A stretch of 64,000 bases of DNA from Xanthomarina spongicola (GTDB taxonomy: Bacteria > Bacteroidota > Bacteroidia > Flavobacteriales > Flavobacteriaceae), in assembly GCF_003148645.1 (NCBI RefSeq), contig NZ_QGGP01000003.1, positions 186,001 through 250,000 on the forward strand, given 5' to 3'. Under the pieces are notes generated by a model. That model was not told the origin of the DNA. It ran no database searches and saw only the letters and a list, made by a program, of their open reading frames with translations. Below, in pieces: positions 4,606-45,325 of this stretch (positions are counted from its first letter, which is position 1; every line of letters begins with the position of its first letter). A program made the position numbers and the translations under genes.

Positions 4606-6732
4606 ATGGCAGTTTTAAATAAAATTAGACAACGTGGACTCTTCTTAATCATTGTGATTGCGTTAGCGTTATTCTCTTTTGTAATTGGAGATTTGTTTAG
4701 AAATACAGATGCATTAGTAGGAAAATCTCAAAACATTGTAGCTACTATCAACGGAAAAGACATTTCTCGTGAAGACTTTTTAGGAAAAGTAGAAGCAGCA
4801 CAAAGACAGCTTGGGCCAAATGGAACCAACATGCAAGCAATGAACAGAGTTTGGGATCAAGAAGTAAGACAAGCTGTGTTAGAAACACAATTCGAAGAAC
4901 TTGGTCTAACTGTTGAGAAAGATCAAATGAGAGATTTGTTAAGAACTAACTTAGCAAATAGTCCAGAATTTCAAAATGAAGCTGGTCTTTTTGATGAAAA
5001 TAAATTAAACGAATACATCGCTAATTTAAAAGAAACATCTGCAGTTGCATATAAGCAATGGATAGATTACGAAAATAGTATTGCAGTAAACTCTTTACAA
5101 CAAGACTATTTTAATATGGTTAAAGCTGGTATGTCTGGAACTTTAGCTGAAGGGAAATTAGAGCATACATTAGAAAATGAGACTGTTGACATTAAGTACG
5201 TTCAAATTCCATATACTTCTATAGAAGATAGTACAGTTTCTGTTTCTAAATCTGAAATCTCTACTTATATAAATAAGCATAAAAAACAATACGAAGTTGA
5301 AGCAACAAGAGACCTTCAATATGTAGAATTTAAAGAGGTTGCTACTGTTGAAGACGAGAATAACATTAAACAAGACTTAGTTAATTTGTTAAATGACCAA
5401 GTGGTTTATAACGAGGTAACTAAAAATAACGATACTGTTAAAGGTTTTGCGCATGTAAAGAATAATAAGACTTTTATCAATTCGAATTCAGATATTAAAT
5501 TTGAAGATCGTTTTGTATTTAAATCGGCTTTACCAGCTGCAATAGCTGACACAATTTTTAAAATGAATGTTGGTGAGGTATATGGTCCTTATAAAGACGG
5601 AACTCACTTTAAATTATCTAAAGTGGTTGCCGTTGTTCAAATGCCAGACTCTGTTAAAGCAAGACATATATTAATTCCTTATGTTGGAGCTGCAAGTGCT
5701 CAACCTGAAGTTACTCAAACCGAAGATCAAGCTAAAAAAACAGCAGATAGTTTATTAACTATTTTAAAATCAGATAAATCTAGATTTCCAGAATTTGTAA
5801 CAACTTACTCTTCAGACCAAGGAAGTATTGAAAAGGGAGGTAGTTATGATTACTTTACTTACCCAACAATGGTAGAAGAATTTAGAGATTTTGTTTTCGA
5901 AAATAATGTAGGAGATATGGATGTTGTAAAAACCATGTTTGGTTTTCACATTATAGAAATCGAAGGTCAAAAAAATCCACAACGTGCTATAAAAGTTGGG
6001 ACTATTGCTAGAATTATTGAGCCTTCTGAAGCAACCATTAATCAAGTATTTAGAGATGCTTCAAATTTTGAAATAGCAATCGATAAAGGAGATTTTCAAG
6101 AAGCTTCTAAAGAAAAAGATTATGTTGTACGTCCTGTAAATGGCGTTAAAGCTTTAGACGAAAATATACCTGGATTAAGTAACCAAAGATCTATTGTTCG
6201 TTGGGCATTTGAAGAAAACACAGAAGTAGGTGATACTAAACGTTTCAATTTAAATGGAGGTTACGCAATTGTACAAATTACAGCAAAATTTGCTGAAGGT
6301 TTAATGAATACAGAACAAGCATCTGTTACTGCATTGCCAGCAATTAGAAAGGAAAAGAAAGCTAAATTAATAAAAGACAGAATCTCTGCAACAACTTTAG
6401 AAGATGTAGCAGCTGCTGAAGGACAAACAGTAAAAACATCTCTAGCAATTAACATGAAAAACCCAACTATTTCAGGAGCTGGAAAAGAAGGTGTTGTTGT
6501 TGGAACTGCTTTTGGATTAAATGAAGGTGAAACTTCTAAATTAATTGAAGGTGAAAAAGGCGTTTACATGGTTCAAGTTACTAAAAAGACACCAGCTGCA
6601 GAATTAGATAACTATCAAGGTTTTGCTAACCAGGTTGGTACAGCTAAAATAAGCAATGTAAATACAAATCTATATAATGCATTAAAAGAGGCTTCAGAGA
6701 TTGAAGACAATAGAGCTAATACAGTTCAATAA
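4606..6732 (+). CDS. PpiD/SurA-like periplasmic peptidyl-prolyl isomerase
   Basis: A 708-residue chaperone anchored by one N-terminal membrane segment (residues 13-30). A SurA_N-like helical region follows (about 40-190), then a parvulin-type rotamase domain beginning near residue 350 with VKARHILIPYVG and ending with the GFHIIEI strand near 450. A second degenerate repeat precedes the C-terminus. This is the architecture of PpiD, which assists folding of outer membrane and secreted proteins at the periplasmic face. It follows the CNNM gene by 100 bp and closes the envelope gene run; a strong bidirectional terminator lies directly after it. Confidence 0.9.
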   Translation: MAVLNKIRQRGLFLIIVIALALFSFVIGDLFRNTDALVGKSQNIVATINGKDISREDFLGKVEAAQRQLGPNGTNMQAMNRVWDQEVRQAVLETQFEELGLTVEKDQMRDLLRTNLANSPEFQNEAGLFDENKLNEYIANLKETSAVAYKQWIDYENSIAVNSLQQDYFNMVKAGMSGTLAEGKLEHTLENETVDIKYVQIPYTSIEDSTVSVSKSEISTYINKHKKQYEVEATRDLQYVEFKEVATVEDENNIKQDLVNLLNDQVVYNEVTKNNDTVKGFAHVKNNKTFINSNSDIKFEDRFVFKSALPAAIADTIFKMNVGEVYGPYKDGTHFKLSKVVAVVQMPDSVKARHILIPYVGAASAQPEVTQTEDQAKKTADSLLTILKSDKSRFPEFVTTYSSDQGSIEKGGSYDYFTYPTMVEEFRDFVFENNVGDMDVVKTMFGFHIIEIEGQKNPQRAIKVGTIARIIEPSEATINQVFRDASNFEIAIDKGDFQEASKEKDYVVRPVNGVKALDENIPGLSNQRSIVRWAFEENTEVGDTKRFNLNGGYAIVQITAKFAEGLMNTEQASVTALPAIRKEKKAKLIKDRISATTLEDVAAAEGQTVKTSLAINMKNPTISGAGKEGVVVGTAFGLNEGETSKLIEGEKGVYMVQVTKKTPAAELDNYQGFANQVGTAKISNVNTNLYNALKEASEIEDNRANTVQ

Positions 6733-42015: not shown

Positions 42016-42885
42016 ATGCTTTTAATTGCCCCAGAACAAGATTATTATATAGGACTATTTATTTTAGTTGTACTGCTTGGGTTTTTACTTGTTATTGTTT
42101 CAATATGGTTGAGACAAATAGCTGTGAGTGTTTTCGATGGTATTGAAATGGGCTCTATATTTATAACAAAACGTCCTGTATTTATTTATTTCTACCCCTT
42201 TTTAAACAAGTTATCGCCAAAGCAAGAAAGCATATTAAAACAACAATTTACCTTTTATAATAGATTGAATAAAAGAAAAAGAGCTTATTTTAAACACAGG
42301 GTAGCTGCTTTTATCAAACAGAAACAATTTGTGGGTAACGATGGGTTTTTAATTACAGATGAAGTAAAAGTGTTGATTTCTGCAACTGCTGTTATGCTTA
42401 CCTTTGGTTTTAGGGATTATATTATTAAATCCATAAAAACAATAATAGTTTATCCAACCCAATATTATTCAACCGTAAATGATGATTATCACAAAGGGGA
42501 ATTCCATGTGAATCTAAAAACATTGGTGTTGTCTTGGGATAATTTTATGGATGGATTTAGAATAGAAGACGATAAATTAAATCTGGCTATTCATGAGTTT
42601 GCACATGCCATTCATTTTAACAGTATATACCAAAACGATATAAATTCGGTTATATTTTTGGATACCTTCAACGAACTGAGAGAATTACTTTCAAATAACG
42701 ATAGCTTGAGGTCTCGTTTGGTTCACTCCGAATATTTAAGAAATTATGCATTTACTAACGACTTTGAGTTGCTAGCCGTTATTTTAGAAACCTTTATTGA
42801 ATCTCCTAATGAATTTAAAAAGTATTTTCCTAAAATTTATGGTCTGGTAAAACAAATGCTAAATTTCAATTTCTCTGGATATTAA
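42016..42885 (+). CDS. Membrane-anchored MtfA-like zinc peptidase (M90)
   Basis: A 289-residue protein with a hydrophobic N-terminal segment (residues 11-32) followed by a domain like the E. coli Mlc-titration factor MtfA, a zinc aminopeptidase. The zinc motif HEFAH is at 193-197, preceded by LNLAI, and the third-ligand helix FELLAVILETFIESP (Glu251/Glu258) follows about 55 residues later, as in M90. E. coli MtfA is soluble, so the membrane anchor is a group-specific addition. It converges on the glycosyltransferase gene with a gap of 21 bp; no functional link to it is evident. Confidence 0.85.
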   Translation: MLLIAPEQDYYIGLFILVVLLGFLLVIVSIWLRQIAVSVFDGIEMGSIFITKRPVFIYFYPFLNKLSPKQESILKQQFTFYNRLNKRKRAYFKHRVAAFIKQKQFVGNDGFLITDEVKVLISATAVMLTFGFRDYIIKSIKTIIVYPTQYYSTVNDDYHKGEFHVNLKTLVLSWDNFMDGFRIEDDKLNLAIHEFAHAIHFNSIYQNDINSVIFLDTFNELRELLSNNDSLRSRLVHSEYLRNYAFTNDFELLAVILETFIESPNEFKKYFPKIYGLVKQMLNFNFSGY

Positions 42886-42906: not shown

Positions 42907-45003
42907 TTATATTTCTTGACAACATACGTTATTGTGATTTTTGAAATTAGGAATAATAAAAATAATGTGTTGTTGTTTTAAAACGTCCAACACTAATTTT
43001 ATGTTTTCATCATTTGTATCTATTAACTCCTCATCTTTCAATAGTGTTTCAACTTGAGACTTCATGTTTTTGTTATGATATTCCAATAAAAATTCGTTGT
43101 CGTAAAGTTTTATCAAACAATCGTTTTTGCCAAAATCCAGTGTAGCTTGTGGGTTTGTTTTTAAAATAGATTCTTCATTAGAATAGGCTTTTTGTAACAC
43201 TTTGTAAAGAGCTTCAAGAACCCTGTTGATAGTTACGGAATTTAAACAAATTTTATGTTCGCAATTCAAGATAACATCGTAATTACATCTAATGTTGCAC
43301 ACACCTTTTTTGCCCCATATCAATTCGTTGTATTGGGCAAAGCTTCCCCAACTTCCAGGACCAGTTGGGCCATAAATACCTACTGTAGGAATATTATAGG
43401 CTCCAGCAACATGTGTAATTCCAGCATCATTACCAATGTGGAACAATGCACCAGATAAAGCTTCTCCAACGTCATCCATTCCACCAGTAATATAACTAAC
43501 ATGTGTCATGGGTTTAGTGAAGTAAGATTTAATTTCAGGATCATTAGGTCCCATTATTATCTTACAATCTAAATGTGGATATATAATGGCTAATCTTTCA
43601 ATTAGTTGTGCATATTTTTCAGTTGGCCATATTTTTAATAAAAATCCTGCACCATGATGAACTACAAAATGCTTCTTAGTTATTGTTTTTGTTTTTGCAA
43701 AATATGGAAAACCATAATATTCACTACTTATCTCAATATGCAGCTTTGCAACTGTATCTATATAATGTTGTATAGCATGTTGCTTTACTTTTTTGTGGGT
43801 TGGGTATTTTAGTGCATGAGGCAAATCAAAACCTCTAAAAGCTGGGTAATTACCTAATTCATATATGTTGTCAAATATATTTTCTTGCTTCTTTGCATCC
43901 TCTTCGTTTATAACTAATATGTTTTTTAGGTGTTTAGAAAAAAAAGGCACTAATCTTGGTGCAACAGCAAAACTTAAACTATCTGAAACATTGGCTAATT
44001 TATTTATTGCTGGAATTGCAAAGAATATATCGCCTAAACCACCATAGCTTTTATAAACCAAAACTTTTCCTAATGACTTACTTTTGTTCTGTTTTTTGTT
44101 ATTTAATATAGTGTCAATTTCTTTCCAAAAATCAACTAATACAGCTTTCATTTCATCAATGGCTTTTGCTTTGTTGTCTGGGTAAAAATCAAATGAAAAA
44201 GTTCCTATCTTATCGTTAGAAATAATTTTGCAACCAGAAAGGAAAGCTTCTGCTGCTAATCTACCAGATGGTTCAGGCCAAACAGGTTGGCAAAAAAAAG
44301 TTTTTGTTCGACCTAGAATATTTAATACTTCATTATTAGAAATCGGTTCATGAAACTCAACATTATTAGGAATTATTTGTCTTAAATAATTTTTGCCATA
44401 AACAGGAAATTTTTTTTCTGGATGCTTTTCTGCAAATTCTATGTATGCTTTTCCTCCTTTCAAATAATTTAAATCTCCAAAAAATGGAATGACATCATCA
44501 ATTTTGTTTTTACTGATATTTAGATTATCGACATCTACTGTTGGAGGATATGTTTTATAGTTTTTTATAGCTTCACCATAAAAATCATAGTGAGCTTCAT
44601 AATGTTTTGGAGATTGAAAAATGTTAAGTATTGCATTAGCAAATAACTTTCTGTATATATGAAACTTATCGGGATTACAACAACTCTTTATTGATCTGTC
44701 TACTGTACAAAGGATATTTCTTCTAATACAAAAATTATAGTCAAATTCTATTTTTATGTATGGTATAGATAATGATAATATAAAGTCAATCAATTCTAAT
44801 TCAAAAGGGCATCTAGATGTACTATTAACTACTAATAAATTAGATTTTAAAATATTTTTCTTCGTGATTTCGAAATCCTTGAGATTTTCTGTAAGAATAT
44901 TGTAGTTTAAATTTGAGCCAGTTGAGATTAATTGATTTATAGTAAGTTCTGCACCTCTTGGAGTATTTAAAGAGGTGTCGTGTAAAAAAAGAATGTTATT
45001 CAA
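42907..45003 (-). CDS. Two-domain glycosyltransferase (GT4-like plus GT9-like fusion)
   Basis: A 698-residue protein with no signal peptide. Residues 1-305 look like a GT-B enzyme of GT4 type: RGAELTINQL near the start, a FFGDLNYLKGGKAY strand, and the E-x7-E motif in WPEPSGRLAAEAFLSG (Glu244/Glu252). Residues 312-605 are a GT9 heptosyltransferase-like domain (VYKSYGGLGDIFFAIPAI, HHGAGFLLKIWP at 449, HIGNDAGITHVAGAY at 522) with a CX3CX7CX4C cluster (569, 573, 581, 586), comparable to the metal-binding cysteines of protein O-heptosyltransferases and to cysteines in other GT9 enzymes. The last 90 residues match nothing I know and end in a Cys-Cys pair. The start is TTG. It lies 58 bp behind the DGYYX-repeat lipoprotein on the same strand, so glycosylation of that protein is a reasonable but unproven role. 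Confidence 0.82.
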   Translation of the reverse strand: MNNILFLHDTSLNTPRGAELTINQLISTGSNLNYNILTENLKDFEITKKNILKSNLLVVNSTSRCPFELELIDFILSLSIPYIKIEFDYNFCIRRNILCTVDRSIKSCCNPDKFHIYRKLFANAILNIFQSPKHYEAHYDFYGEAIKNYKTYPPTVDVDNLNISKNKIDDVIPFFGDLNYLKGGKAYIEFAEKHPEKKFPVYGKNYLRQIIPNNVEFHEPISNNEVLNILGRTKTFFCQPVWPEPSGRLAAEAFLSGCKIISNDKIGTFSFDFYPDNKAKAIDEMKAVLVDFWKEIDTILNNKKQNKSKSLGKVLVYKSYGGLGDIFFAIPAINKLANVSDSLSFAVAPRLVPFFSKHLKNILVINEEDAKKQENIFDNIYELGNYPAFRGFDLPHALKYPTHKKVKQHAIQHYIDTVAKLHIEISSEYYGFPYFAKTKTITKKHFVVHHGAGFLLKIWPTEKYAQLIERLAIIYPHLDCKIIMGPNDPEIKSYFTKPMTHVSYITGGMDDVGEALSGALFHIGNDAGITHVAGAYNIPTVGIYGPTGPGSWGSFAQYNELIWGKKGVCNIRCNYDVILNCEHKICLNSVTINRVLEALYKVLQKAYSNEESILKTNPQATLDFGKNDCLIKLYDNEFLLEYHNKNMKSQVETLLKDEELIDTNDENIKLVLDVLKQQHIIFIIPNFKNHNNVCCQEI

Positions 45004-45061
45004 GGCATAAGTAATTTAGACTCAAGAGTAAGAGTCAGTTTAATCAATTCAACAATTCTCC

Positions 45062-45325
45062 TTAATAACCATCACAATAGTATCCATCGTCATAGTAACC
45101 ATCACAATAGTATCCATCATCATAATATCCATCGTCATAATATCCATCATCATAATAACCATCATCGTAGTATCCATCATCATAATACCCATCTCCATAA
45201 TAGCCGTCGTTAAAGGAATCATCATCATCACTGCTGCAAGAAGTAGCAATAGAAGCTGTAATTGAAATAGCAGAAATAGCTAATAATGCCTTTCCTGATT
45301 TTTTTAAAAAATGCCTCCTATTCAT
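45062..45325 (-). CDS. Tat-type surface lipoprotein with DGYYX pentapeptide repeats
   Basis: An 87-residue protein. Residues 1-30 form a twin-arginine-like signal (NRRHFLKKSGK, then a hydrophobic stretch) ending in a lipobox with Cys30. CSSDDDD follows, resembling the Ser/Asp-rich lipoprotein export signal that sends Bacteroidota lipoproteins to the cell surface. Residues 40-87 are nine DGYYX pentapeptides plus a final DGY; X is Gly, then Asp five times, then Cys, Asp, Cys. No family is known to me. A good promoter stands upstream and a two-domain glycosyltransferase gene follows 58 bp downstream. The reading frame is supported by the perfect signal sequence, codon-level variation that keeps the amino acids, and the promoter. 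Tyrosines or cysteines could be modified; function unknown. Confidence 0.82.
   Translation of the reverse strand: MNRRHFLKKSGKALLAISAISITASIATSCSSDDDDSFNDGYYGDGYYDDGYYDDGYYDDGYYDDGYYDDGYYCDGYYDDGYYCDGY
45065..45208 (-). repeat. 15-bp tandem repeat array coding for DGYYX
   Basis: Nine full units plus nine bases of a 15-bp repeat (minus-strand type GATGGATAYTAYGAT, with third-base changes) encode the pentapeptide array. Units differ mainly at synonymous positions. Such arrays can change length by slippage while keeping the frame. Confidence 0.92.

Follow-up and report, generated by a model that had tools for sequence, protein, structure and literature searches.

The locus examined in this study raises the question of what a very short lipoprotein built of tyrosine-rich repeats could be for, and which neighboring gene it might work with. 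It lies in a window of 64,000 nucleotides from Xanthomarina spongicola, the window being the whole stretch of DNA that was analyzed. A preliminary description of this DNA had reported an open reading frame with a twin-arginine signal, a lipobox Cys30, an acidic run and nine DGYYX units followed by DGY. All of these matched the sequence when it was read again and the coordinates were correct, and the strand, absent from that description, is the minus strand. The features of the gene are as follows.

45062..45325, minus strand: gene for the DGYY-repeat Tat-type lipoprotein, 87 aa, ATG start, TAA stop (stop codon included in the span)
45239..45325, minus strand: signal peptide, residues 1-29, with RRHFLKK at residues 3-9
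45236..45238, minus strand: codon of the lipobox Cys30, invariant in 27 of 27 aligned sequences
45218..45235, minus strand: SSDDDD, residues 31-36, a surface-export-like signal
45065..45208, minus strand: DGYYX array, residues 40-87, nine units plus DGY
45004..45061, minus strand: 58-bp gap between the lipoprotein gene and a glycosyltransferase gene

The X residues of the window array are, in order, G, D, D, D, D, D, C, D and C, and the array is also a strong tandem repeat as DNA (Tandem Repeats Finder scores of 161-185 at periods of 15, 30 and 45). The family assembled here comprises 42 distinct proteins, counting the one in the window, and every member comes from Flavobacteriaceae or from an unplaced Bacteroidota bin; they were chosen by the RR start motif and at least three repeats, and so cannot be used to test those features. 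They carry between 3 and 18 repeats each and 362 units in all, of which 359 have Tyr at repeat position 3 and 354 have it at position 4. When neighboring units were compared across the 42 proteins, the two Tyr codons showed 325 synonymous and 8 non-synonymous differences (164 and 161 synonymous versus 5 and 3 non-synonymous for the individual codons), while position X showed 109 synonymous and 89 non-synonymous. Since change at the Tyr codons is mostly synonymous, it is the amino acids, and not the DNA repeat alone, that are maintained. The lipoprotein is a real gene under selection, and the strongest selection in the repeats falls on Tyr.

A scan of one genome per species with the lipoprotein gave at least 33 loci, of which at least 26 are orthologues that share the signal peptide, the Cys and the DGYY array; seven matches (L014, L022, L023, L025, L026, L031 and L032) were set aside as other proteins before counting. 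Among the matches listed, the orthologous loci come from Formosa, Hanstruepera, Subsaxibacter, Meridianimaribacter, Aequorivita, Altibacter, Planktosalinus and Flavobacterium as well as unplaced Bacteroidota bins. The preliminary description had proposed a check of homologues and of the frame in relatives, and the same architecture was indeed found in related genomes with the frame kept. The best-scoring locus among the matches listed is that of Formosa maritima, where one neighboring protein, which we take to be sigma-factor-like, is 100% identical to its window counterpart over 287 residues. One of the proteins set aside, from a Ruminococcus bin (L014:905-1879), is lipoprotein-like with a short DGYYDN-type linker ahead of a domain that, we assume, resembles a metallo-beta-lactamase fold. 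The likeness of this linker to the flavobacterial array is probably convergent.

The signal peptide was considered next to the claim that this is a Tat-type lipoprotein. The twin-Arg pattern RRxF[LI]K is present, and R3, R4, F6, K8, G11 and C30 are invariant across 27 aligned sequences. TatC is encoded in the genome (228 bits, cut-off 25.1). However, the NCBIfam Tat model TIGR01409 scores 11.8 bits, below its cut-off of 16.7. A special role of the signal peptide in leader recognition was also considered and is unsupported because its conservation (0.79) is no higher than that of a matched Sec signal from the same five genomes (0.77). After the lipid Cys, at least two of the first six residues are acidic in all 42 proteins. 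This resembles SDDDD and SDDFE, two signals that led to surface display in Capnocytophaga (PMC5080379), and agrees with the surface-export signal proposed in the preliminary description, which would place the protein on the cell surface.

That description had also suggested listing the neighbors. Doing so revealed a partner that it had not mentioned, a glycosyltransferase gene that adjoins the lipoprotein gene and whose features are given below.

42907..45003, minus strand: partner gene, a 698-aa fused GT4-GT9 glycosyltransferase with a C-terminal tail, TTG start
44095..45003, minus strand: GT4-fold half, residues 1-303, with an E-x7-E motif (E244, E252)
43180..44070, minus strand: GT9-fold half, residues 312-608
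43246..43299, minus strand: four-cysteine loop C569-x3-C573-x7-C581-x4-C586, found in 17 of 17 sequences
42910..43170, minus strand: C-terminal tail domain, residues 612-698, for which the structure model gives strands, two helices and a strand

The TTG start codon of the partner gene is the one supported by alignment. A terminator-like site was looked for on the minus strand of the 58-bp intergenic gap and none was found, and a promoter scan returned 17 sites against a mean of 17.0 in shuffles, which is no excess.

The pairing of the two genes was found in nearly every locus. Among the matches listed, an enzyme homologue lies directly downstream on the same strand in 25 of the 26 loci that were found via the lipoprotein only, and the pairing is kept even where the outer gene order differs. 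In the exception (L018) the place of the fused enzyme is taken by a tail-domain gene of its own and a GT2-type gene. When all 42 proteins are considered the figure is 40 of 42, which is partly conditioned as L035-L054 were fetched by the enzyme; the missing two are L018 and L001, the latter being a short excerpt of the window gene, for which the partner is seen in the window itself. Across 299 family genomes the enzyme occurs in 24, the lipoprotein in 23 (E <1e-20) and both in 23, and in all 23 the genes are adjacent on the same contig and strand (hypergeometric 1.7e-33, kinship ignored). In the 24th genome (G347) the enzyme gene extends to the end of its contig, beyond which the upstream neighbor would lie. 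G260 and G473 gave weak lipoprotein matches (E 1.7e-5 and 9.9e-5, in frames of 420 and 383 aa), which were taken as non-members by E-value and frame length only. The lipoprotein-glycosyltransferase pairing is thus well supported. The gene pair is also uncommon. In an order-level draw the enzyme was found in 2 of 246 genomes (E up to 1e-20), and a class-level search of 395 genomes with a GT9-tail profile (E up to 1e-15) gave a full-length match in the genome of X. spongicola only, together with five weaker matches from two other families, mainly over the GT9 core. A genome of the same genus (G492) lacks the pair, and the flanking CBS-domain protein gives weak matches there.

Other neighbors are far less constant. 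Clustering of 270 ORFs of at least 80 aa from the 26 loci among the matches listed gave the enzyme/tail cluster as the sole neighbor family in 26 of 26, L018 being counted by its tail gene; the flanks ranged from 70 to about 6,000 bases upstream and up to about 6 kb per side, so rarer neighbors can be missed. The next cluster, presumably a nitroreductase-like gene, is found in 10 of these 26 loci, and two further clusters, which we take to be regulator-like genes, in 7 each. In the window an M90-type metallopeptidase gene (42016-42885, opposite strand; Pfam 122.5 bits) adjoins the pair, and among the matches listed a homologue is found near the pair in 7 of the 26 loci, in some of them on the other side.

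The constancy of the enzyme bears on the suggestion in the preliminary description that the protein is a polymer of Tyr and Asp that serves in metal binding or forms cross-links at Tyr or Cys, in which case the glycosyltransferase would be incidental. The repeats do contain much Asp and Tyr, two Cys are present in the window copy, the protein of L072/L076 has one Cys at either end of its array, and the presumed nitroreductase-like gene of the 10 loci could be read in the same way. However, Cys within the array is found only in the window protein, 1 of 42, and cross-linking through Cys is unsupported as a general function. The second acid is also dispensable, since X is G through most of the array of L041 and V, M, E or N in that of L072/L076, where DGYY is unchanged. 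Near-perfect co-occurrence with the enzyme, and the fact that no redox gene is common to all loci listed, argue further against the polymer, to which we give a slim chance. The two in-array Cys of the window protein, both at position X, are missing there in its nearest relative (L047/L085).

The enzyme itself was assigned from its two halves. The GT9 half matches Pfam PF01075 at 50.7 bits, over the curated cut-off of 22, and is predicted to take a WaaC-type fold with catalytic-type Asp, Lys, Asp and His. The GT4 half has a predicted GT-B fold of the GT4 type plus the E-x7-E motif, while its Pfam Glycos_transf_1 score of 19.1 bits is below the cut-off of 26.4. Confidence of the structure model drops below 50 at residues 568-584, within the Cys loop region. 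A fold comparison of the whole enzyme gave WaaC and WaaG among its matches, mostly over residues 1-303 and with none over the tail; TibC was not among the best 50 entries, which excludes nothing. GT4 and GT9 enzymes commonly make LPS cores. It is therefore conceivable, from these folds and from the possibility that acidic, aromatic DGYY repeats bind sugars, that the enzyme builds a surface glycan such as LPS or exopolysaccharide and that the lipoprotein is a binding or anchoring partner and not a substrate. The neighborhoods do not favor this. No second neighbor occurs in more than 10 of the 26 loci among the matches listed, no polysaccharide gene was recognized by eye in clusters of at least three loci (Pfam was run on some only), and the enzyme swaps partner domains while the repeat protein stays linked to it. 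We consider this explanation unlikely, though it retains appreciable weight.

These domain swaps were found in several forms. In three loci (L027, L075 and L077) the GT9-tail part is a protein on its own, and a DUF5672-GT2 protein comes after it (Pfam assignments), and in L076 the N-terminal half of the enzyme is shortened and a convergent GT2-type gene is present. In L074 (4530-6053), at a contig end, the GT9-tail part is fused to a different N-terminal domain that we assumed to be GT25-like; a Pfam scan of this enzyme gave GT9 only, leaving GT25 unsupported. In L018/L078 the GT9 is missing beside the lipoprotein, and the tail is kept as its own gene with a GT2-type gene alongside. The L018 tail gene (6245-6481) encodes 79 aa, is the tail domain only, lies beside the DGYY lipoprotein and is 41% identical over 68 residues to the tail of L077; the same strain carries a full pair elsewhere (L005; G461). 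A GT9-tail tree of 38 rows, which left out L051-L054 on account of the start motif and in which L072 and L076 are one genome, groups broadly by taxon, with L074 as a long branch inside the GT4-GT9 clade. The GT9-tail core is kept while its partner varies between a GT4 fusion, a DUF5672-GT2 gene and another N-terminal domain. Taken across the loci, the swaps leave the DGYY protein and the tail as the constant parts, nearly always with GT9.

The tail domain, of about 85 aa, matched no known family by sequence and no recognition-element family, and its reading as an RRE- or PqqD-like module, likewise without a sequence match, is a guess. Recognition domains of peptide-modifying enzymes can stand alone, as the tail does in L018. 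With a short precursor, a dedicated enzyme and the M90-type gene that accompanies the pair both in the window and, among the matches listed, in 7 of the 26 loci, this would fit a glycosylated RiPP-like product, in which the modified DGYY peptide would be released by cleavage and secreted as a small glycopeptide. However, the M90 gene lies on the opposite strand and is absent from the 19 other loci within the available flanks, the invariant lipobox Cys argues for anchoring, the tail is without a recognition-element match, and an extra C-terminal domain follows the array in 12 of the 42 proteins. The chance of such a product appears very slim. The C-terminal domain of the L008 protein has a sub-threshold DUF4847 match, and no DUF4847 match was found when a piece from L019 was scanned. 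The latter locus (6001-6708 and a second upstream gene) has two tandem DGYY lipoproteins with one enzyme, and only one of the two has the C-terminal domain.

The reading that best accounts for these data is that the two genes probably form a dedicated protein-glycosylation pair, in which the repeats are glycosylated in the cytoplasm and the protein is then exported by Tat, lipidated and displayed on the surface. In this model the lipoprotein precursor would be made in the cytoplasm, and the fused GT4-GT9 enzyme would there add and extend short glycans on the DGYY repeats, most likely on Tyr hydroxyls. The modified protein would then leave via Tat and be lipidated at Cys30, and the Ser/Asp export signal would take it to the outer face of the outer membrane. 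The end product would be a short, acidic, glycan-bearing surface brush, or, in relatives with the C-terminal domain, a glycosylated stalk. The sequences themselves show the gene pair with its conservation and co-occurrence, the folds and motifs, and the selection on the repeats; the action of the enzyme on the lipoprotein, the choice of Tyr as acceptor, modification ahead of export and the surface location are inferred from them. Modification in the cytoplasm is suggested by the tight linkage of a two-fold transferase of cytosolic type to a repeat protein. Tyr is the most likely acceptor on the repeats and Asp a less likely one, since the repeats are without Ser/Thr in 39 of 42 proteins and without Lys/Arg in all 42; the Ser residues near Cys30 could serve as alternative acceptors. 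Further points against the model are the sub-threshold Tat score, the ordinary conservation of the signal peptide, the lack of a family match for the tail, a GT9 half of heptosyltransferase type in genomes with no heptose pathway found, the lipoprotein of L018 with no adjoining GT9, and the M90-type gene in 7 of the 26 loci among the matches listed, which would fit processing. Of the three options in the preliminary description, glycosylation is the best supported because of the paired glycosyltransferase, with the modification itself still putative.

The GT9 half resembles heptosyltransferases, and ADP-heptose was considered as the donor. HldE domain II had no match in the genome of X. spongicola at E 0.001, and a search there for GmhA was also negative. 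Of 298 family genomes, 61 were listed with a match to HldE domain II, 2 of which exceed the cut-off; the 24 genomes that bear the enzyme all fall outside these 61. ADP-heptose was judged unlikely since these searches did not find the heptose pathway.

A more far-reaching form of the model is that each array Tyr primes a glycan chain built by alternating GT4 and GT9 additions, as two-domain polymerases do, with synthesis wholly in the cytoplasm and export by Tat. We regard this as decidedly unlikely. If true, the product would be a lipid-anchored glycopolymer that is primed by protein and linked through Tyr, a bacterial equivalent of mucin or of priming by glycogenin, and lineage-specific swaps of the second transferase would alter the sugar of the coat while leaving the DGYY primer unchanged.

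If the glycosylation-pair model is correct, some flavobacteria have an undescribed system that decorates Tyr with sugars ahead of export. Among repeat proteins, those with Ser-rich repeats and the autotransporters are known to be glycosylated directly in the cytoplasm, and general O-glycosylation in Bacteroidota uses other motifs and takes place after export. Surface lipoproteins that carry Tyr-rich repeats and leave via Tat would be a new arrangement. Because the pair is minimal, with two genes and 57 acceptor residues beyond the Cys, it would be a compact test case for Tyr-O-glycosylation. The pair also bears on the use of Tat by modified, possibly unfolded proteins and on how a conserved GT9-tail core takes interchangeable partner transferases.

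The preliminary description knew of no family with the DGYYX repeat, and the searches made here found none either. No description of the repeat or of the gene pair was found among the papers listed from open full texts, a scope that leaves outside most subscription papers and all preprints. Searches of the same texts for GT9 with Tat, repeats and flavobacteria, and for DUF5672 with glycosylation, returned nothing.

Several known systems nevertheless resemble parts of the pair. The gene of an autotransporter heptosyltransferase (BAHT) adjoins the gene of its substrate, an arrangement similar to that of the pair described here. TibC and Aah (PMC4358343) share with the window enzyme a WaaC-like GT-B fold, a repetitive surface-protein partner and four Cys in the C-lobe. 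However, the iron-finger Cys of TibC are residues 339, 342, 358 and 370 in that account, with gaps of 2, 15 and 11, whereas the gaps in the four-cysteine loop of the window enzyme family are 3, 7 and 4 (17 of 17), and BAHT membership was dropped because of this spacing. It also fails on the NCBIfam model TIGR04414, which the window enzyme did not match up to E 1 and against which L027 scored 11 bits (cut-off 200), and on the donor: BAHT enzymes use ADP-heptose on a beta-helical autotransporter, whereas here no heptose pathway was found and the partner is a DGYY lipoprotein.

Known Bacteroidota surface lipoproteins have ordinary signal peptides, while the window lipoprotein has a Tat-type signal and a repeat body. 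It shares with them the Cys followed by Ser/Asp, in the examples taken from PMC5080379. SdgA and SdgB, which act on staphylococcal Ser-Asp repeat proteins (PMC3794999; see also PMC8561734), offer a working likeness, namely the glycosylation of a repeat protein, which is putative here. In that system the acceptor is Ser on cell-wall-anchored Gram-positive proteins, whereas here it would be Tyr repeats on a Tat-type lipoprotein served by a fused GT4-GT9-tail enzyme; the GT4 fold match of that enzyme is general and not specific to SdgB. A precedent for Tyr-O-glycosylation is found in Gram-positive S-layers such as that of Paenibacillus alvei (PMC2943079). These are likewise bacterial surface proteins, and in that review finished glycans are expected to be moved by an O-OTase to at least two Tyr. 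Here, in contrast, the Tyr linkage is a proposed one, two Tyr are present in every five residues of a Gram-negative lipoprotein, and the putative enzyme would act on them directly in the cytoplasm.
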